Shown here: in pieces, positions 1-34,143 of the stretch
Layout: every line of letters starts with the position of its first letter
How positions within the stretch are numbered: the stretch's first letter is position 1
Source: a virus
Length of the DNA: 34,143 bases
Direction: 5' to 3' (one strand)
IMG/VR virus record: IMGVR_UViG_3300035670_000777
Span: 1 to 34,143 of that record
Position numbers and translations under genes: made by a program
Notes under the pieces: generated by a model
What the model saw: the letters and a program-made list of their open reading frames with translations, nothing else
Database searches by the model: none
What the model was told of the DNA's origin: nothing

Positions 1-1107
1 CATATAAACAGACGGGACATTGTCGCCGATCGCCTCAAACGACGCCGCAAGCGCGGCGAAATAGGTCGAATTAAAACCTATCGGCGCCGTAAGGGGCGAC
101 GCCGCGCCGATGCACGGGATTGACGACGTAACGTCGTCACCCGTTTTGGCCCGGAGTGTAGCGCCCTCCCACGCGACAGGCGCGTTCTTGCCGCCGATCT
201 GTTTCGCCAGCATTGCAGCGGCCGACAGGCTCTTGACGTCACACGACGCCGAATAGACCGGTAGACGGCTTTCGCCTGATCTTGTCGGCGGAATGACGCG
301 CCGATAGTCGGGGAACGTCCCATCAATGAGTTTTGACACGACTAGGCGCGACCCTATGCGAGCCTGCACGTGCTGGGACGTGATATACAGGAGCGACGCG
401 TCCGCGAGGGCGTCAAGGGCGGCGTTTGGGATGATCGCAGACACGCTAAGGGGCGCCGCCTGATTTTCGCCCGGCCCGACCATGTCCGCGTGCGAGAGCG
501 TCGCGTCGGCCGCGTGATAGGCCGCCAGCCGATGCCCGTCCGTGGCCACCACATCGACGCCGCCGTCGCTGCGAGAGACGATCGCGACCCCGTTGAGGTA
601 GTAGCGCGTCTCCTCGGTCGACACGCAAGGCCGGACGGCCGCGAGCGCCATAGGCCAAGCGGCCATACCTACGTAGACGCCGCCCTCGGCGACCGCGGGC
701 GCCGGCGGATAATCGGCCGCGTCCAGTGTCGGCAGTAGTGTCGGACCGACCCGAAGGCGGACGATGTGCGCGTCGTCTCGCTCGATAGTGATCCGGCCAT
801 CATTAAGCTTGACAGCCGCCTTGCACGCTTGCGCGAGTGCGCGCGCGTCGACGCACACCTGAGAGGGGGCGCCGGGTTGGGGCGCGACGTAGCCGAGACC
901 CGTCACAGTCTCGCGCGTGTAAAGGTCGCAGTCTGTCGCCTCGACAGTGACGTCTGTTGACGACACGCGAGGCGCGACCGTCACGCGCGCGTGCGTGAGG
1001 ATGGGCAACGCCGCGCGGCGTGGCGCAACGGCGGCCGCGCGTGTGGCGGCGGCCGCCAGCGTGGCGATGGGCGAGAGCGTTTTGGTGGTTTTGGTTTTCT
1101 TAGACAT
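1..1107 (-). CDS. dnaN: DNA polymerase III beta sliding clamp (partial, 3' end beyond window)
   Basis: I translated this strand by hand: 369 codons are open from the ATG at 1107 to the window edge with no stop. Clamp landmarks appear in order: LPILTHARV and VEATDCDLYTRE in domain 1, ETRYYLNGVAI and VDVVATDGHRLAAYH in domain 2, SKLIDGTFPDYRRVIP opening domain 3, and FNSTYFAALAASF near the C terminus. Bacterial clamps are about 366-380 residues, so only around 20 residues are missing. The clamp encircles DNA and tethers the polymerase; here it would serve the phage family A polymerase or recruit host enzymes. The N terminus is Ala/Lys-rich and diverged. An AAGGGAA ribosome-binding sequence precedes the start. 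It is the third gene of a leftward unit from the promoter near 1605-1632. Family call is confident; partner is inference. Confidence 0.9.
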   Translation of the reverse strand, partial: MSKKTKTTKTLSPIATLAAAATRAAAVAPRRAALPILTHARVTVAPRVSSTDVTVEATDCDLYTRETVTGLGYVAPQPGAPSQVCVDARALAQACKAAVKLNDGRITIERDDAHIVRLRVGPTLLPTLDAADYPPAPAVAEGGVYVGMAAWPMALAAVRPCVSTEETRYYLNGVAIVSRSDGGVDVVATDGHRLAAYHAADATLSHADMVGPGENQAAPLSVSAIIPNAALDALADASLLYITSQHVQARIGSRLVVSKLIDGTFPDYRRVIPPTRSGESRLPVYSASCDVKSLSAAAMLAKQIGGKNAPVAWEGATLRAKTGDDVTSSIPCIGAASPLTAPIGFNSTYFAALAASFEAIGDNVPSVYM

Positions 1108-1714: not shown

Positions 1715-1847
1715 TTTGGCTATATTGTCATTGATTTATTTATAGATGATGATGAATATTATATATATATTATGGGAAATTGCTGATAGCTCCGCCGCTC
1801 CCGCCGTTTCCAGCCAGCGATTGTTGCAGGGTGACAATATAGCCAAA
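1715..1847. repeat. 16-bp perfect inverted repeat flanking an A+T-rich core
   Basis: TTTGGCTATATTGTCA at 1715-1730 is matched by its exact reverse complement at 1832-1847, with 101 bases between. The enclosed segment begins with an A+T-rich run containing alternating AT near 1755-1770. A partial relative (ATTGTCATTG) is repeated at 1639-1648 and 1724-1733. The arms could be protein-binding sites or form a long-range stem; use as part of an origin is inference. Confidence 0.6.
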
Positions 1848-2090
1848 ATGACCCAGAACCGCCCAGCATTAACCAAATCCCACCGCGCAATCGCCCGTCG
1901 CGCCTACGATTTCGCGCAAAACACCACAGAAAAGGTTAATGGGCGATTTGGGCTAATTCAAAACGCATGCCAAGATTGCCCATGTTTATGGGCAGTCTAG
2001 GCTATGCCTCAAACACTGCCCAAATAGCCCAACAGGTCGACAGGTCACGGGCAATGGTCACGCCGCGCGCGCCAATGCTGGCGATCCTGG

Positions 2091-2203
2091 ACGGAACGCA
2101 CCGTCTCGACTAGATGCAAAGACGGAACGTACCGTGTCGCCAGGTTGCAAAGACGAAACGTACCGTCTCGACTAGATGCAAAGACGGAACGTACCGTGTC
2201 GCC
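2091..2203. repeat. four-copy 31-bp iteron array
   Basis: Units begin at 2091, 2122, 2153 and 2184, each 31 bases on; the fourth is cut after 20 bases. Each starts with a near-palindromic core close to ACGGAACGTACCGT. The first three end in TGCAAAG. Copies alternate in type: 1 and 3 carry TCTCGACTAGA, 2 and 4 carry TGTCGCC, so the array looks like a duplicated 62-bp pair. Spacing of three helical turns puts the cores on one face of the DNA. Initiator or repressor binding sites are the likeliest role. Confidence 0.7.
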
Positions 2204-2244
2204 TGGGGGGGAGGGGGGCCGACGGCCGGTGTGGTAATTGTAGA

Positions 2245-2294
2245 GGCACCGCAGACAAATTTTTTTATTTTTAAAAACGGCACCGCAGACAAAA
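2245..2294. repeat. direct repeat GGCACCGCAGACAAA with T-tracts
   Basis: The 15-mer occurs at 2245-2259 and 2279-2293, 34 bases apart. Each copy runs straight into a tract of seven or eight T residues. It lies just upstream of the first packaging gene. It may be a regulator site, a bent-DNA element or part of a packaging start site; no clear hairpin precedes the T-tracts, so a terminator is less likely. Confidence 0.5.
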
Positions 2295-2350
2295 TTTTTT
2301 TTACAAAAGTTTTTGCCCCGCCGCCTAAATTTTGACGTGCGGTTTTTCGT

Positions 2351-3304
2351 ATGTTAAAAAAATCCATGTTCCATAACCTGCCCTTCACCCCGCGCACGCT
2401 ACAGGCGACCGAGGCGCGTCTCGAACAGATCTACAACGCCGCCCGGCTGGGCCTGCGCGGGGACGCGCTGGCGCTAGCGGCAGGCATGCTGCCGTCCGAG
2501 TACACGCGCCTGCGGCAGGTGGACCCGATAGCGGAGATGGCGGAATTGAAGGGCCGCGCCGACGGCGAGCGCGAGATGTCCCTGATCCTCCACGACGCGG
2601 CGCGGCAGGGCGACGCCAAGGCGGCGCTGGAGATTCTGAAGCATCAGCACGGGTGGGTCGCTAAACAACAGGTCCAGGTGGACGTCGAACAGCGCATTAG
2701 TATTACGGGCGCGCTGGAGCGCGCAGAGATGAGGGTTATCAATGCAGACTACTCTGTACTCGGCCGACGAGGAGATGGAGCTGATGGCCCGTCTCTGGGC
2801 CTTGAAGAACGACCCGCTCAAGTTCGTGATGTACGCCTTCCCGTGGGGCCAGACGGGGACGCCGTTGGAACACTTCAACGGCCCGCGCAGGTGGCAGCGC
2901 GAGGTGCTGGAGGAGCTGACGGAGCACCTGGCGTCGAACAACGGCAAGATCGACTTCGACACGTTCAGGATGGCGGTGAGTTCCGGTCGAGGGATTGGCA
3001 AGTCGGCGCTGGTGAGCTGGCTGGTGATCTGGATGCTGACGACGAGAATAGGGTCGACGACCATCATCTCGGCCAACTCCGAGTCCCAGCTGCGCTCTAT
3101 CACATGGGCGGAGATTACGAAGTGGATCAGCATGGCGCTGCACAGCCACTGGTTCGAGGTCTCGGCGACGCGGGTGATGCCGGCGAAGTGGATGACGGAG
3201 CTGGTGGAGCGGGACCTGAAGAAGGGGACGCGCTACTGGGGCGTCGAGGGGCGCCTCTGGAGCGCGGAAAATCCAGACGCCTACGCCGGGGTTCACAACT
3301 TTGA
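2351..3304 (+). CDS. terminase small subunit-like protein with a long overprinted C-terminal extension
   Basis: Residues 1 to about 130 look like a phage small terminase: a predicted helix-turn-helix (DALALAAGMLPSEYTRLRQ), a helical middle (ILHDAARQGDAKAALEILKH) and the GWVAKQQVQVDVEQRISITG strand region, directly upstream of the large subunit. The small subunit binds the packaging site and regulates the motor. Oddly, no stop occurs where it should. The frame stays open 563 bases into the large-terminase gene, adding about 187 residues of Gly/Arg/Asp-rich sequence with no family character. Either the protein really carries this tail, or a frameshift or base error hides a stop: in the -1 frame a TGA lies at 2782-2784, which would give about 144 residues. 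No clear ribosome-binding sequence; ATG at 2366 is an alternative start. Confidence 0.6.
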   Translation: MLKKSMFHNLPFTPRTLQATEARLEQIYNAARLGLRGDALALAAGMLPSEYTRLRQVDPIAEMAELKGRADGEREMSLILHDAARQGDAKAALEILKHQHGWVAKQQVQVDVEQRISITGALERAEMRVINADYSVLGRRGDGADGPSLGLEERPAQVRDVRLPVGPDGDAVGTLQRPAQVAARGAGGADGAPGVEQRQDRLRHVQDGGEFRSRDWQVGAGELAGDLDADDENRVDDHHLGQLRVPAALYHMGGDYEVDQHGAAQPLVRGLGDAGDAGEVDDGAGGAGPEEGDALLGRRGAPLERGKSRRLRRGSQL

Positions 3305-4262
3305 CGGGGTGATGCTGGTCTTTGACGAGGCCAGCGGTATAGACGACTCGATCTGGGCGGTGTCGGCGGGCTTCTTTACGGAGAACACCCCGAACCGGTT
3401 TTGGTTTGCGTTCTCGAACCCGCGCCGCAACAGCGGGTACTTTTACGAGACGCACCACTCGAAACGGGACTTCTGGCGGACCAAGATCGTCGACGCGCGC
3501 AGCGTCGAGGGCACCGACAAGGCGGTCTATCAGCAGATCATCGACGAGTACGGCCCGGACAGCACGCAGGCGCACGTGGAGGTGTATGGGGAGTTCCCGA
3601 ACGCGGGAGACGACCAGTTCATACCGAACCATCTGGTCGACGAGGCCATGAAACGCCCGCGCTATAAAGACCAGAGCGCGCCTGTGGTCATCGGGGTGGA
3701 CCCGGCGCGGTTTGGGTCGGACGCAACCGTAATCGCGGTGCGGCAGGGGCGGGACATTGTGGCCGTCATGCGCTACCGGGGCGACGACACGATGGAGACT
3801 GTCGGGCGCGTCATCGACGCCATGGATCAGTACAAGCCGGCGCTGGTGGTCATCGACGAGGGCGGGCTGGGGGCGGGCGTCGTCGACCGGCTGAAGGAGC
3901 AGCGGTACAAGGTCAAGGGCGTCAACTTCGGTAACAAGTCGTCTAAACCGGTCATGTACGGTAACAAACGGGCGGAGATGTGGGGGTCGATGAAGGAGTG
4001 GCTGAAAACCGCGTCGATACCGGCGGACAGGTTCCTGAAGAACGACCTGGTCGGGCCTATGATGAAGCCGGACAGCAGGGGTACGATCTTCCTGGAGAGT
4101 AAAAAGGACATGAAGGCGAGGGGGCTGGCCAGCCCTGACGCCGCCGACGCCATCGCCGTGACGTTTGCGTTCCCTGTGGCGCACCGGGAGGCGCGCGTTG
4201 ACACGACGCCCCGGCGCGCCTATGGTCCGTCGAGTGTGACTAACAGCTGGATGGGTAGCTGA
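2742..4262 (+). CDS. terL: terminase large subunit (packaging ATPase and nuclease)
   Basis: The 506-residue protein has the two halves of a phage packaging motor. The ATPase half carries Walker A SGRGIGKS at residues 81-88 and Walker B VMLVFDEAS at 190-198. The RNase H-like nuclease half carries VIGVDPARFG (D320), VVIDEGG (D372) and SPDAADA (D466/D469). It pumps DNA into the prohead through the portal and cuts the concatemer. Length is normal for the family. It begins inside the small-subunit frame and its stop overlaps the next start (TGATG), indicating translational coupling. Family assignment is firm; the packaging mode cannot be read from the sequence. Confidence 0.95.
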   Translation: MQTTLYSADEEMELMARLWALKNDPLKFVMYAFPWGQTGTPLEHFNGPRRWQREVLEELTEHLASNNGKIDFDTFRMAVSSGRGIGKSALVSWLVIWMLTTRIGSTTIISANSESQLRSITWAEITKWISMALHSHWFEVSATRVMPAKWMTELVERDLKKGTRYWGVEGRLWSAENPDAYAGVHNFDGVMLVFDEASGIDDSIWAVSAGFFTENTPNRFWFAFSNPRRNSGYFYETHHSKRDFWRTKIVDARSVEGTDKAVYQQIIDEYGPDSTQAHVEVYGEFPNAGDDQFIPNHLVDEAMKRPRYKDQSAPVVIGVDPARFGSDATVIAVRQGRDIVAVMRYRGDDTMETVGRVIDAMDQYKPALVVIDEGGLGAGVVDRLKEQRYKVKGVNFGNKSSKPVMYGNKRAEMWGSMKEWLKTASIPADRFLKNDLVGPMMKPDSRGTIFLESKKDMKARGLASPDAADAIAVTFAFPVAHREARVDTTPRRAYGPSSVTNSWMGS

Positions 4263-25932: not shown

Positions 25933-26150
25933 GCCCGCAAGCGTTCCGCCTCCAATGCTCGATACTCTGTGAACCTATAAAGGAACCAAACACGGCGTTT
26001 TTCTGTTGTTCTCCGCCAGACCCAAACACGGCGTTTTTCTATTGTTTGCAGACAGACCCAACGGTCTGTCTCAAGTTTAACTGGACGCCACGCAAACCAA
26101 CGCGTCCACGGATATTCGATTACCGGAATAAGTACTTCACGCTCGCTCAT
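25914..26150 (-). CDS. hypothetical protein with 12-aa tandem repeats, 78 aa
   Basis: The Trp/Arg-rich protein (MSEREVLIPVIEYPWTRWFA start) contains TIEKRRVWVWRR followed directly by TTEKRRVWFLYR and a degenerate third unit (FTEYRALEAERL). It ends in a short coiled-coil-like ALEAERLRAELGDL tail resembling its upstream neighbour's tail. The WRPVKLETDRWVCLQTIEKR part looks like small strand repeats. It overlaps both neighbours with ATGA. I do not recognise a family. Confidence 0.7.
   Translation of the reverse strand: MSEREVLIPVIEYPWTRWFAWRPVKLETDRWVCLQTIEKRRVWVWRRTTEKRRVWFLYRFTEYRALEAERLRAELGDL
25986..26040. repeat. 36-bp in-frame tandem duplication inside a small gene
   Basis: CCAAACACGGCGTTTTTCT occurs at 25986-26004 and 26022-26040, exactly 36 bases (12 codons) apart. 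The near-identical DNA shows a recent duplication that kept the reading frame of the 78-residue protein. Confidence 0.8.
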
Positions 26151-26350
26151 TCCTTCCCCCCCAGCTCCGCCCGCAGCCTCTCCACCTCAGCCCGCAAACT
26201 TTTAATTTCTACCAACGCTTCAGCAGCGTCTAACGGAATACCCATCAGCCGTAACACTTCTGAATCGGTAAGAGTGACTGGACTTCGTGATTGCACATGT
26301 TTAACCGCCTGCCATAGGTATAGAGGCGCGACTGTTTGTGTGTCGCTCAT
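26147..26350 (-). CDS. hypothetical protein with C-terminal coiled coil, 67 aa
   Basis: The start at 26350 is chosen because GGGGGA lies before it and the ATG overlaps the upstream stop (ATGA); an in-frame ATG at 26395 lies inside that gene. The product (MSDTQTVAPLYLWQAVKHVQ, SRSPVTLTDSEVLRLMGIPL) ends in a heptad-like helix (ALVEIKSLRAEVERLRAELG). A SDTQTVAPL start followed by a short helical domain is all that can be seen; no family is recognised. It is part of the leftward early cassette. Confidence 0.7.
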   Translation of the reverse strand: MSDTQTVAPLYLWQAVKHVQSRSPVTLTDSEVLRLMGIPLDAAEALVEIKSLRAEVERLRAELGGKE

Positions 26351-26365
26351 AGGTCCCCCAGCTCC
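26342..26365. repeat. gene-junction linker repeat, copy 2
   Basis: Exact 24-base copy of 25909-25932, here joining the HTH gene (C-terminal ELGDL) to the coiled-coil gene (MSD start). A related but diverged form with GAGCTGGGGG lies at the 26150 junction. Confidence 0.75.
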
Positions 26366-26559
26366 AGCCGTATGCCTACCTTCAGCACCTTGCACAGCCG
26401 GTCCAGCCGCGACAGGGGCACGTTCTCGGGGTCGTCCAGCGTGCGCTTCAGCGTGTTGTGGCTGATGTTGCTGCGCTCCGCCAGCTCCTCCAAAGACCAG
26501 CCTTGCTGCTTACGCGCCGCCTTCAGTATCCCGCTTAGTGTCATGGGTTTCGGTGTCAT
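26347..26559 (-). CDS. XRE/Cro-type helix-turn-helix DNA-binding protein, 70 aa
   Basis: The ATG at 26559 follows GGGGGAG with good spacing and overlaps the preceding stop (ATGA); ATG 26604 upstream is rejected. The protein is one compact HTH_XRE domain: TLSGILKAARKQQGWSLEEL, AERSNISHNTLKRTLDDPEN, VPLSRLDRLCKVLKVGIRLE. Helices 2 and 3 (SLEELAERSNISHNTLKRTL) form the reading head. It ends in ELGDL. It probably represses or times early genes and is a candidate binder of one of the repeat arrays, which is inference. Confidence 0.88.
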   Translation of the reverse strand: MTPKPMTLSGILKAARKQQGWSLEELAERSNISHNTLKRTLDDPENVPLSRLDRLCKVLKVGIRLELGDL

Positions 26560-26735
26560 ACAGTCTCCCCCAATTCTCTCAGCCCATATGCCGCCAGCTG
26601 CCACACCCGCTCAGTGCCGGGGTCGGCGACAACTTGCAGCAGCACCTGCCGCAGCACGTAGACCTGCTTACGGAGCCTAACGATTTCGTCGATTAGGCGG
26701 CTTTCTTCCTCTCGCAAGTAATCCAATTCGGTCAC
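26556..26735 (-). CDS. small coiled-coil protein, 59 aa, GTG start
   Basis: This gene lacks an ATG. A GTG at 26735 follows AAAGGGAG with suitable spacing. The product reads (M)TELDYLREEESRLIDEIVR, LRKQVYVLRQVLLQVVADPG, TERVWQLAAYGLRELGETV: a strong heptad coiled coil. The stop overlaps the HTH start as ATGA and ends the same way as its neighbours (ELG plus a G-rich ribosome-binding sequence). It overlaps the upstream gene by 59 bases, which lowers confidence. Confidence 0.55.
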   Translation of the reverse strand: MTELDYLREEESRLIDEIVRLRKQVYVLRQVLLQVVADPGTERVWQLAAYGLRELGETV

Positions 26736-30526: not shown

Positions 30527-31294
30527 ATGTCTTATAGTGGCGTAATAGCAGTTTGGTTTTCGTGCGGCGTTGCCAGCGCGGTAGCGGCGAAGCTGACGCT
30601 AGACCGATTCGGAAGCACCAACGCAATACGAATTTTGAATAACCCGGTTGTCGAGGAAGATTATGACAACGTGCGCTTTCGCAACGATGTGCAGGCGTGG
30701 CTTGGTGCGCCCATAGAGATCGTATCCAACAAAAACTGGCCCGACGCGAGCGCCGCCGTTGTTTGGGAAAAGAGAAAATTCATGTCCGGCCCGTTAGGCG
30801 CGCCGTGTACTGCAGAGCTGAAGAAGGAAGCTCGGCAGCAGTGGGAGCGTGAGAACAAGGCGGACTGGCACGTTCTTGGCTTTACTGCGGACGAGCAGAC
30901 ACGACATAAACGGTTTGTTTTAACGGAGCGATCCAACGTCATACCCGTGCTGATAGACGCGGGTCTGACAAAAAAAGACTGCCACGCTTTGTTGCGTGCG
31001 GAAGGTATCGCGCCGCCTAGAGTTTACGCGCTTGGCTACCCTAACGCCAACTGCATAGGGTGCGTAAAAGCAACAAGCCCGACCTATTGGAATTTAGTTC
31101 GACAAAAACACCCGGAAGTCTTCGCCGCACGCGCGGCGCAATCTAGGCAGATTGGCGCGCGGCTGGTGAGGGTCAACAACACGCGCATGTTCCTGGACGA
31201 GCTAAACCCCGCCACTAAAGGGCGGAGGATTAAAAATCTCGACGTGGACTGCGGCGTTTTTTGCGAAGAAAAACCAAAAAATGCTCTGGATTGA
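30527..31294 (+). CDS. PAPS-reductase/PP-loop superfamily enzyme, 255 aa
   Basis: The N-terminal FSCGVASAVAAKL (11-23) is the PP-loop-like nucleotide-binding motif of the PAPS reductase superfamily, followed by LGFTADEQTRHKRF (117-130) and a set of cysteines: GAPCTAELKK (C94), NCIGCVKA (C176, C179) and DCGVFC (C242, C246). The cysteine set could bind an iron-sulphur cluster, as in DndC-like and tRNA-thiolation relatives. Phage members are widespread; substrate is unknown, and reduction of sulphate esters or sulphur insertion into nucleic acid are both possible. The gene is A+T-richer than its neighbours. It overlaps the polymerase start by 14 bases. Confidence 0.85.
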   Translation: MSYSGVIAVWFSCGVASAVAAKLTLDRFGSTNAIRILNNPVVEEDYDNVRFRNDVQAWLGAPIEIVSNKNWPDASAAVVWEKRKFMSGPLGAPCTAELKKEARQQWERENKADWHVLGFTADEQTRHKRFVLTERSNVIPVLIDAGLTKKDCHALLRAEGIAPPRVYALGYPNANCIGCVKATSPTYWNLVRQKHPEVFAARAAQSRQIGARLVRVNNTRMFLDELNPATKGRRIKNLDVDCGVFCEEKPKNALD

Positions 31295-33185
31295 TTTCGA
31301 GACGCGGTCGCCGTGCGACCTGAAGGCCGAAGGCGTTTACAACTACGCCCGTCATGCCGACACTGAGGTGATCTGCATGTCCTACGCCTTCGATGACGGC
31401 GAGGTGCAGACCTGGCGACCCCCGGCGCGGTTCCCGGTCAACGTCTGGGCCTACTCCGGCCAGATCCGCGCCCACAACGCCGCCTTCGAGCGGCTCATAA
31501 TGAAGTACGTGCTGAGGACGCCCCACAAGCTGGAACAGTTCTACTGCACCGCCACGCAGGCACGCGCCAACTGCGCGCCGGGCTCGCTGGACGACGTCGG
31601 TCGGTTCGCGGGCGTGTCGATGCGGAAGGACCACCGGGGCGCGCACCTGGTCCGCCAGTGCTGCATCCCGCCCTATTCCGAAGACCCGCGGGAGCTGGCC
31701 GAGCTGATAGCCTACTGCGAGCAGGACGTGCGCGCCATGCGCGCCGCCTCGCAGGCCATGCGGGAGCTGTCAGCCGAGGAGCTGGCCGACTACCACGTCA
31801 ACGAGCGGATCAATGACAGGGGCGTGCGGCTTGACCGTCCCCTCGCCCTCGCCGCAGTGCAGTACGCGGCCATAGAGACGCGGGACATACAGGACCACGT
31901 CGTGCGGGTCACGAACGGCGAGATCACGAGCGTGCGCTCCCGCAAGATGACACAGTGGGTTTACGACCGCGTCGGCCCGCAGGCGCGCAAGCTGATGATG
32001 AACCAAGAAAAGCTATCAATCGACAAGGCCGTGCGCGGTAACTTGCTAGCGATGGAGGACAGCGATGAAATTCCTTGGCACGTCATGGAGGTCATCCAAG
32101 CCGCCGACGACATCTGGGCCAGCTCCGTCGCGAAGTTCCGACGCGCCGCCGACCTCGCCGACTACGACGACGAGCGGGTGCGCGGCGCCTTCGTCTTCGC
32201 TGGTGGAAGCGCTACAGGCCGTGCTAGTTCTTTCGGGCTCCAAGTCCATAATTTCCCACGCAAGGCGCTGAAGGACCCCGCAGCGGCGCGTGCTGCGCTC
32301 GTCGCAGGGCAGGACGTGACGCCGACCTACGGCGCGCGTGTCGCTGACGTCCTGAAGGGCCTGCTGCGCCCCTCCCTGATCCCCGCAGAGGGCCACGTGT
32401 TCGTCGTCGCCGACTGGTCCGCCATCGAGGCGCGCGTCAACCCTTGGCTCTCCAGCCGCGGCGACGACAAGTTGAAGTTGTTTGCCGAGGACATCTACAA
32501 GCACAACGCCGCCGCCACGTTCCGTTGTACGGTCGACGAGGTGACGGACGACCAGCGTCAGATCGGGAAGGTGCAAGAATTAGCGTGTGGTTTCGCCGGC
32601 GGCGTCGGCGCGTTCGCCGCGATGGGCCGGATTTACGGCTTGCACTTGCCCGAGTACGAGGCGCGGCGCATGGTCGACGCCTGGCGCCGGGCCAACCCGT
32701 GGGCCGTCCTGTTCTGGGCCGAGCTGGAGCGTGCCTACACCCGCGCCATGCGTAACCCCGGCCGGGAGTTCACCGCCGGCCGGATAACCTACATGTTTGA
32801 CAACACGCATCTCTGGTACGCCCTGCCCTCCGGGCGCGTGCTCTGCTACCCCTACGCGCGTCTGGAGACCGACGGCGTGTCCTACGCCCGCGCTTCGTGG
32901 AAGCCCTCCGCCGACGCCAAGGAGTGGCCGCGTGCGCGTCTGTGGCGCGGGCTGGCGTGCGAGAACGTCACGCAGGCCACGGCGCACGACCTGTTGCGGG
33001 CCGCCCTCCGTCGCCTTGACGACGTCGTCCTCCACGTCCACGATGAGGTTGTTCTGGAGCGCCCGGCGGGCACGGCGCGAGAAGACGCAGCGCACCTACA
33101 GCTGGTGATGGAGCGAGCGCCGGAGTGGGCGGCCGGACTGCCTCTCAAGGCCGAGGCGAAGATCTTGGAAAGGTACGGGAAATGA
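31281..33185 (+). CDS. DNA polymerase, family A with 3'-5' exonuclease domain, 634 aa
   Basis: The exonuclease domain shows LWIDFETRS (D5, E7), AHNAAFERL (64-72) and AYCEQDVRAM (144-153). The polymerase domain shows motif A FVVADWSAIEARV (374-386; D378), the O-helix QIGKVQELACGFAGG (427-441; K430) and motif C VLHVHDEVVLE (583-593; D588). In the O-helix the position equivalent to E. coli Phe762 is Leu434. It lacks the 5'-3' exonuclease domain of bacterial Pol I, as is normal for phage enzymes of about 600-700 residues. It replicates phage DNA, possibly with the phage clamp. It overlaps its neighbours on both sides. Confidence 0.95.
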   Translation: MLWIDFETRSPCDLKAEGVYNYARHADTEVICMSYAFDDGEVQTWRPPARFPVNVWAYSGQIRAHNAAFERLIMKYVLRTPHKLEQFYCTATQARANCAPGSLDDVGRFAGVSMRKDHRGAHLVRQCCIPPYSEDPRELAELIAYCEQDVRAMRAASQAMRELSAEELADYHVNERINDRGVRLDRPLALAAVQYAAIETRDIQDHVVRVTNGEITSVRSRKMTQWVYDRVGPQARKLMMNQEKLSIDKAVRGNLLAMEDSDEIPWHVMEVIQAADDIWASSVAKFRRAADLADYDDERVRGAFVFAGGSATGRASSFGLQVHNFPRKALKDPAAARAALVAGQDVTPTYGARVADVLKGLLRPSLIPAEGHVFVVADWSAIEARVNPWLSSRGDDKLKLFAEDIYKHNAAATFRCTVDEVTDDQRQIGKVQELACGFAGGVGAFAAMGRIYGLHLPEYEARRMVDAWRRANPWAVLFWAELERAYTRAMRNPGREFTAGRITYMFDNTHLWYALPSGRVLCYPYARLETDGVSYARASWKPSADAKEWPRARLWRGLACENVTQATAHDLLRAALRRLDDVVLHVHDEVVLERPAGTAREDAAHLQLVMERAPEWAAGLPLKAEAKILERYGK

Positions 33186-34143
33186 TTTCAACGCAGGCGT
33201 TTATAGATCACCTGGCCAGCCTCGCGCAGGACGGCGAGACGGCCCTACTCGTGCGCCAGCGCCCTCGCCAGCCTCTACAGTACCACGCCGACGGCGCGTG
33301 CGTGTCGACCCGGTCGGCCGTCCTGCCCGAGCAGGCCGAGCCTCAGCCGCGTGAGGCTTGGTACGCTGTCAACGGCGCGTTCATCATGTCCCGTTGGCCG
33401 CAGGGTCAGCCGTCATGGAAGGCGGAATTTGTTGATTATGTGATGTTCATGGTTCTGGACGACGTCGGAGTGAAGGCGAGCGAGCCTCCCCTCGCCCCTA
33501 CGTGGATCATCGAGACCTCGCCCGGATCGTACCAGTGGGGTTACGTGTTCAGCGAGCAGCCGTCGGCGGCCGAATATACCGCCGCCTACCGCGCCATTGC
33601 GGACGCAGGCTTTACCGACCCCGGCGCGAACGGCCCCGCCCGCCTCTGCCGCATCCCCGGCTCGGTCAACCTGAAGCAGGGCCGCGACATGTTCGCCGCG
33701 CGTCTGGTGACGTGGGAGCCCTCGCGCGAGTACACTCTGGACGAGATCTGCGCTGCGCTAGGCGTCACGCCCGAGCCCGCCAGCACGGCCGTCCATCGCA
33801 GCGTGCGGGTTCGCGACACGGGCGGCGACACGGTGCTGGCGTGGCTGTCCGAGCATGATTTGGTCCTAAGCAAGCCCAATCTGGATGGGTGGCTGGGCGT
33901 CGTCTGTCCGAACCATGCCGAGCACTCGGACGGTAGCGTCGAGGGGCGATACCTTCCCGCGACGCGCGCCTACTGTTGTTACCATAGCCATTGCGCCGAG
34001 TTGAACAGCGCGGCGTTCCTGGCGTGGGTCGCCGACAACGGCGGTCCCAAGGCGAGCGCCGGACTGCGCGAAGAACTTGTCGCCGAACGCATGCGCCTCG
34101 TCGAGTCGACTTTGACGCCTGGCGACATGTTCTCCGACGACGC
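33182..34143 (+). CDS. RepB-type DNA primase (partial, runs past window end)
   Basis: The start overlaps the polymerase stop (AAATGA). I read about 320 codons to the window edge without a stop. Recognisable parts are TWIIETSPGSYQWGYVFSEQ, LCRIPGSVNLKQGRDMFAAR and LVTWEPSREYTLDEICAALG, which fit the RepB primase (archaeo-eukaryotic primase-like) pattern, then SKPNLDGWLGVVCPNHAEHS with TRAYCCYHSHC, a Cys/His cluster probably binding zinc. Such proteins often continue into a helicase or ATPase domain. It would prime DNA synthesis for the adjacent polymerase. Moderate certainty on family, high on replication role. Confidence 0.8.
   Translation, partial: MISTQAFIDHLASLAQDGETALLVRQRPRQPLQYHADGACVSTRSAVLPEQAEPQPREAWYAVNGAFIMSRWPQGQPSWKAEFVDYVMFMVLDDVGVKASEPPLAPTWIIETSPGSYQWGYVFSEQPSAAEYTAAYRAIADAGFTDPGANGPARLCRIPGSVNLKQGRDMFAARLVTWEPSREYTLDEICAALGVTPEPASTAVHRSVRVRDTGGDTVLAWLSEHDLVLSKPNLDGWLGVVCPNHAEHSDGSVEGRYLPATRAYCCYHSHCAELNSAAFLAWVADNGGPKASAGLREELVAERMRLVESTLTPGDMFSDD

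Follow-up and report, generated by a model that had tools for sequence, protein, structure and literature searches.

Background

In iteron plasmids of the RepA type, regularly spaced direct repeats lie near AT-rich DNA, and repeats upstream of the terminase small subunit gene (terS) are a feature of lambda cosB and of headful pac sites. The DNA analysed here (34,143 bases, hereafter the window) belongs to a freshwater phage with a podovirus-like gene set and resembles both kinds of system, with four direct repeats of 31 bp (the 31-mers) that are regularly spaced near AT-rich DNA and lie upstream of terS. It differs from the iteron plasmids in that no Rep of their type was found among the window proteins searched, as the preliminary description had already stated for initiator genes of this class, and in that no initiator shows a link to the 31-mers. 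It differs from cosB and the headful pac sites in that the 31-mers are not conserved with TerS and no fixed genome end was seen.

Regarding initiators with a helicase, P4 alpha binds origin repeats via a winged helix (excerpts of PMC4234260), and SaPI Rep and Cch2 bind iterons via their C-terminal domain (excerpts of PMC7581432). The phage family studied here is like these systems, as far as they are described in the excerpts, in possessing a helicase with a C-terminal domain (here a predicted winged helix) and short, repeated intergenic boxes; the likeness concerns the 9-bp boxes of the family and not the 31-mers. Unlike in the three described systems, several kb separate the boxes, which are found upstream of terS, from the primase-helicase gene. 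The primase of P4 alpha is of the Toprim type according to the same excerpts (PMC4234260), whereas the primase part in this family is RepB_primase-like. A domain combination similar to that found here is present in ORF904 of pRN1 and in the proteins of Bordetella phage BIP-1 (primase, SF3 helicase and winged helix), for which a large stem-loop has been proposed instead of iterons (excerpts of PMC4234260), in contrast to the 9-bp boxes of this family. By analogy, the 9-bp system of the relatives would fit the known initiator-helicase kind in its working.

Genome context

The beta clamp gene and small genes run leftward from ~1.6 kb, and terS and terL run rightward. The conserved part of terS occupies positions 2351 to 2741 (plus strand), with a frame that continues to 3304 inside terL; the terminase large subunit gene terL follows at 2742 to 4262 (plus strand). 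In the window the open terS frame reaches 562 nt into terL, compared with 199 nt in L005, and 15 of 75 loci share an overlap of exactly 133 nt; the long frame may represent an overprinted extension or a frameshift. TerS of the relative L003 was assigned to PF20901 (Sf6_terminase). At the right end of the window, DNA polymerase A is followed by the start of the primase-helicase gene (33125 to 34141, plus strand; first 339 aa, N-terminal PF16793 RepB_primase), which is cut by the contig end; the primase-helicases of the relatives carry PF19263 (DUF5906). Since the gene is cut and the C-terminal DNA-binding domain lies outside the window, the window's own wing cannot be read. Two relatives are annotated: MW202483, of 38.8 kb, has a TerL 81% identical to that of the window, and OR003940 (phage DSL-LC05; PMC10611076), of 37.6 kb, one that is 67% identical. 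Because these genomes measure 37-39 kb, the window is probably ~4 kb short, cut inside the primase-helicase and the clamp.

Regarding the beta-clamp gene (window positions 1-1107), the IMG/VR relatives listed are 28-34% identical, versus 94% and 82% for the terminase relatives of the window; the gene was also tried as bait for closer relatives and rejected, the best segments being only 28-34% identical. A 36-bp tandem repeat (2.1 copies, 25986-26061) lies near the lysis genes, and a phosphoadenosine phosphosulfate reductase-like gene (phrog_424, 30527-31294) is present as an auxiliary metabolic gene. A Cro/CI-type helix-turn-helix (HTH) protein (HTH_3/HTH_26) is encoded at 26347 to 26604 on the minus strand. 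Small proteins consisting mainly of the DnaA C-terminal helix-turn-helix (PF08299) are encoded in 26 of 76 loci (e.g., L002:7083-7379), and the DnaA ATPase part was absent in the one such protein examined.

Structure of the 31-bp array

Four 31-bp units in A-B-A-B order were confirmed by sequence repeat analysis on the plus strand, at 2090-2120 (unit 1, subtype A), 2121-2151 (unit 2, subtype B), 2152-2182 (unit 3, subtype A) and 2183-2213 (unit 4, subtype B, which degenerates into a G-run after ~2206). Autocorrelation over positions 1501-2350 gave 66/80 matches at lag 31 and 60/80 at lag 62, compared with a top score of 42 among 200 shuffled sequences (lags 5-119), and the array had the top TRF score within the window (168). 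Pairwise identity was 29/31 for units 1 and 3, 25/31 each for units 1 and 2, 2 and 3, and 2 and 4, and 22/31 each for units 1 and 4 and units 3 and 4, so that A and B units share 22-25 identical positions. The origin of the array in a duplicated 62-bp pair with two alternating subtypes, as first described, is borne out by the matches at both lags together with the unit identities. Fixed differences between the subtypes occur only at unit positions 16, 20, 23 and 25, in the spacer, which leaves positions 1-15 and 26-31 without any; the two A copies (units 1 and 3) differ from each other at positions 5 and 10, within the core and not the spacer.

The core, ACGGAACGTACCGT, shows dyad symmetry at 6/7 positions per arm. 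Its earlier characterization as near-palindromic is accurate as a description, but not as a significant feature, because equally good palindromes arise in shuffled 130-bp slots and no symmetry above chance was detected against them (p 0.59). No second copy of the core with fewer than three mismatches was found elsewhere in the window, and Rfam gave no match. The 31-bp period is compatible with sites on one helical face. As regular direct repeats beyond chance, the 31-mers share a property expected of origin iterons.

Candidate origin to the left of the array

A pattern scan located two tandem pairs of 9-bp boxes, candidate origin iterons, at 2018-2031 (GCCCAAATAGCCCA, plus strand) and 1940-1953 (GCCCAAATCGCCCA, minus strand). 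These are the only exact tandem box pairs in the window and both are intergenic, compared with an expectation of 0.02 for a pattern that was chosen after reading the region. Further to the left, a perfect 16-bp inverted pair, assigned to the box type by eye, consists of a left arm at 1715-1730 (minus strand) and a right arm at 1832-1847 (plus strand), both reading TGACAATATAGCCAAA, and flanks an A+T-rich stretch (~1724-1775) that is a candidate unwinding element. The A+T-rich segment noted earlier to the left of the array is real, but it is 315 bp away and not adjacent. A weak candidate for a sigma-70-like promoter, from which the early genes would be transcribed leftward, was placed at 1605-1632 on the minus strand (three candidates in the region versus 1.1 expected).

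The box type of the window is comparable to the boxes of the relatives, and the window-type 9-bp boxes, GCCCAAAT, rather than the 31-mers, are candidate targets of the C-terminal domain of the primase-helicase. The likely replication-start signals of the family are 9-bp boxes that differ from phage to phage and surround an AT-rich stretch, to the left of the array; we infer that the window's own boxes would act as its origin. The suggestion of an origin or control region thus finds partial support, in the location between divergent operons and in the 9-bp boxes; it finds none for the 31-mers as origin iterons, and the suggestion of the partial primase as a binder fits the 9-bp boxes but not the 31-mers. 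GC skew, one of the checks proposed for an origin at this place, lent it no support: neither the window nor any of three complete relatives showed a switch there.

Comparison of relatives: boxes and wings

A TerL search of IMG/VR provided 80 loci, and TerS was placed in 81 of 83 loci when the window and the two annotated phages were included. Each relative has its own type of 9-bp box around the AT-rich stretch, with copies that frequently stand in tandem and point in either direction; the types include TGACCCAAA, TTGTCCACA, ATAGCCTAA and ACTGCCGAA, and comparison of their proteins showed that a short C-terminal segment of the primase-helicase changes with the box. Examples of such pairs of box and wing are seen at L061:2131-2520 and L056:2126-2515. 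The sample for covariation started from 76 loci with the C-terminus and TerS; restriction to nearly full-length loci left 59, the demand for a reliable box 37, and deduplication 31. The whole protein was scanned in 25-column windows, with box distance corrected for the rest of the protein (partial correlation), and the top predictor was the segment around GWxDxGRxxSxxx, whose value was reached by 3 of 1000 max-statistic permutations (n=31). In a predicted winged helix, this segment extends over helix three, the strand after it and the wing; in the AlphaFold model the C-terminal domain has the winged-helix order of elements at a mean pLDDT of 81. Comparison of the wing domain with the PDB was weak (highest Z score 6.9, for a match with an extended winged-helix domain; no Foldseek match at E 0.001) and yielded no close relative, with P4 alpha absent among the matches listed.

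A wing rule fixed in advance was then scored on newly fetched loci. From 157 new loci with both genes, 36 without a tandem box, 19 whose C-terminus occurred in the first set and 22 duplicates were dropped; 80 loci were scored, 17 of them without a prediction. The rule was right for 42 of the remaining 63, compared with a mean of 22.5 and a maximum of 31 in shuffles that ignored locus kinship (0/5000 as good). Regarding the classes, it was right for SG/TS wings in 9/9, for arginine wings in 31/43 and for lysine wings in 2/2 cases, and it failed for 12/43 arginine wings and for all nine wings of the GST/GSV type (0/9 right; boxes CCTAG, not CCTAA); among distinct wings, 14/24 were mostly right. 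The arginine rule had earlier been put to a Fisher test (7, 0, 1, 23), which is not counted, as it was partly made after viewing the same data. Because the loci are related and the shuffles ignored kinship, the wing-box code is a strong lead and not a law: in the relatives the box covaries with the wing of the DNA-binding domain, which suggests a partly readable recognition code. A narrow search, limited to open-licence papers and to excerpts of these, found no description of such covariation for this phage group.

Comparison of relatives: 31-mers

The 31-mer core was found in no family member; three of 182 loci matched, all three in unrelated coding sequence. Two pattern scans of IMG/VR turned up isolated matches alone, all in phages unrelated to the family, and the pattern was not found in plasmids. 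In L005, whose TerL is 94% and whose TerS is 86% identical to that of the window, the corresponding sequence is unrelated and the 31-mers are absent. The array is private to this freshwater phage among the loci examined. Comparison of the same intergenic region in related phages, as recommended in the preliminary description, therefore went against its proposal of the 31-mers as initiator sites: as far as the contigs show, the relatives lack the 31-mers, an outcome that the description had itself named as refuting, and keep 9-bp boxes. Neither conservation of the 31-mers nor covariation with the initiator was found in the relatives, the covariation belonging to the 9-bp boxes, and since no relative examined has the 31-mers, there is no conservation pointing to selection on them.

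The G-run element and the slot upstream of terS

The 31-bp array ends directly at a G-run (G-box; 2205-2218, plus strand), which together with the A/T tract that follows is conserved upstream of terS. Among loci with at least 450 bases upstream of terS, a G-run followed by an A/T tract 20-100 bp further on was present in 62 of 67 (window included), compared with 0 of 377 random windows. In a later locus set, 61 of 157 loci yielded no usable element in a similar test, so that either variants escape the search expression or some loci lack the element. The A/T-tract element of the window belongs to repeat family D3, with copy 1 (GGCACCGCAGACAAATTTTTTT) at 2245-2266 and copy 2 at 2279-2300 (both plus strand), and the A/T tract is present in relatives; the duplication before terS has a spacing of 34 bp.

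Of 58 loci, the window among them, 31 had tandem repeats with a TRF score of at least 50 in the 600 bp that precede the G-run, compared with 0 of 58 terL segments. Strong arrays (at least 28/40 lag matches, periods of 12-45 bp) were present in the last 150 bp before the G-run, here called the slot, in 22 of 91 distinct slots including that of the window; 19 of 88 terL control segments passed the shuffle test, all with a score of at most 25. The second locus set added four strong arrays in 70 new distinct slots, which indicates that they are no family requirement, and brought the count to 26 of 161 (window included), with 135 of 161 below the threshold. Periods in the relatives include 15, 18, 24, 28 and 37 bp, which are not multiples of the helical turn; unit lengths are 10 bp in L006, 15 bp in L038 and L262, 18 bp in L014, 20 bp in L073, L243 and L255, 24 bp in L021, 37 bp in L209 and 40 bp in L046. 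Arrays of four 20-bp units, which share a register and stop ~3 bp short of the G-run, are present in L073, L243 and L255, and the subtypes alternate in the first two of these, so a four-unit array at this place is not unique to the window. As the unit varies from phage to phage and few slots are strong, the array of the window is one case of a variable slot and not a conserved part.

In four relatives, long simple repeats (CCTGC, GGCCC, CACACCAGCAC) are found where the window has the 31-mers, with units of 7 and 5 bp in L028, 5 bp in L043 and L238, and 11 bp in L030. The idea that palindromes characterise the slot throughout the family was rejected: 20 of 62 slots reached p <=0.05, and the signal was strong in certain lineages but absent from the window. 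A DnaA-C-domain gene as the source of a slot binder was likewise dropped, since its association with slot arrays in the first set (8/17 versus 4/40) did not recur in the second (0/5 versus 4/65).

Interpretation of the 31-bp array

The 31-mers are best explained, with a probability of about 0.4, as a phage-private array that an accessory DNA-binding protein would occupy, situated between the origin and the G-run and A/T-tract element; this explanation is ranked first because the likely initiator sites are the 9-bp boxes. In its favour are the non-random array, the fixed A/B differences restricted to the spacer, the conserved element adjoining it, the four-unit 20-bp arrays of L073, L243 and L255, the strong arrays in other slots that the terL controls do not match, and the separate origin boxes; against it are the chance-level palindrome, the occurrence of the 31-mers in no relative, the low count of strong arrays in the second locus set, the failed association with the DnaA-C-domain gene and the differences between the A copies inside the core. 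In the proposed mechanism, the C-terminal winged helix of the primase-helicase would recognise the 9-bp boxes (window positions 1715-2031) and so mark the origin, box recognition would precede unwinding of the AT-rich stretch, and a multimer on the 31-mers beside the G-run would set the balance between replication to the left and late transcription or packaging to the right. Both the binding of a protein to the 31-mers and the effect of such binding are something that we infer; the binder could be a product of the missing ~4 kb or the HTH protein at 26347-26604.

Neutral tandem duplication comes second, as a serious though less probable rival. The slot would then be a hot spot of repeat expansion by the G-run and the 31-mers a recent, functionless double duplication, with which their restriction to the window, the simple repeats in the slots of L028, L043, L238 and L030 and the lack of a strong array in most slots agree; the near identity of the two copies of the 62-bp pair also marks the duplication as recent. 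The confinement of the fixed A/B differences to the spacer speaks against this explanation, as do the four-unit 20-bp arrays in the same register in L073, L243 and L255.

Two further explanations, both very unlikely, come next and on a par. As origin iterons proper, the 31-mers would be bound by the primase-helicase or another initiator; they are indeed intergenic direct repeats near an AT-rich stretch in a genome with a primase-helicase, though a cut one, but the initiator-linked boxes of the relatives are 9 bp long and occupy other parts of the region, 9-bp boxes are present in the window too, no relative carries the 31-mers, and even L005, with its nearly identical TerL, differs in sequence there. 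As operators of a CI/Cro-like repressor at an early or late promoter, they would suit the repeated near-palindromes and the HTH_3/HTH_26 protein; the dyad symmetry, however, is not beyond chance, no sigma-70-like candidate overlaps 2090-2213 in a scan that covers promoters of this type, and no copy of the site was found near the HTH gene. Least probable is a packaging site of the pac or cosB type bound by the terminase small subunit, for although the array lies just upstream of terS and is adjoined by the conserved G-run element, L005, whose TerS is 86% identical, lacks the 31-mers, so that this TerS type does without them, and full-length contigs begin at scattered points with no common end in the G-run element. 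A cos end at the G-run was rejected on the scattered contig starts near terS, which reveal no fixed end and are still compatible with pac; the G-run element itself is a packaging-site candidate.

Implications for the phage family

A wider proposal for the family is, as a whole, unlikely: each phage of this freshwater family would have private 9-bp boxes read by the wing of its own primase-helicase, some phages would add a second array at the G-run slot, of which the 31-mers would be one, and both would bar co-infecting relatives from each other's start of replication or packaging. If the present reading is true, control arrays are exchanged among relatives at the site of the 31-mers, origin boxes and initiator wings are available from the family as numerous natural pairs, and the recognition code of a phage primase-helicase would be directly testable with short duplexes and purified domains.
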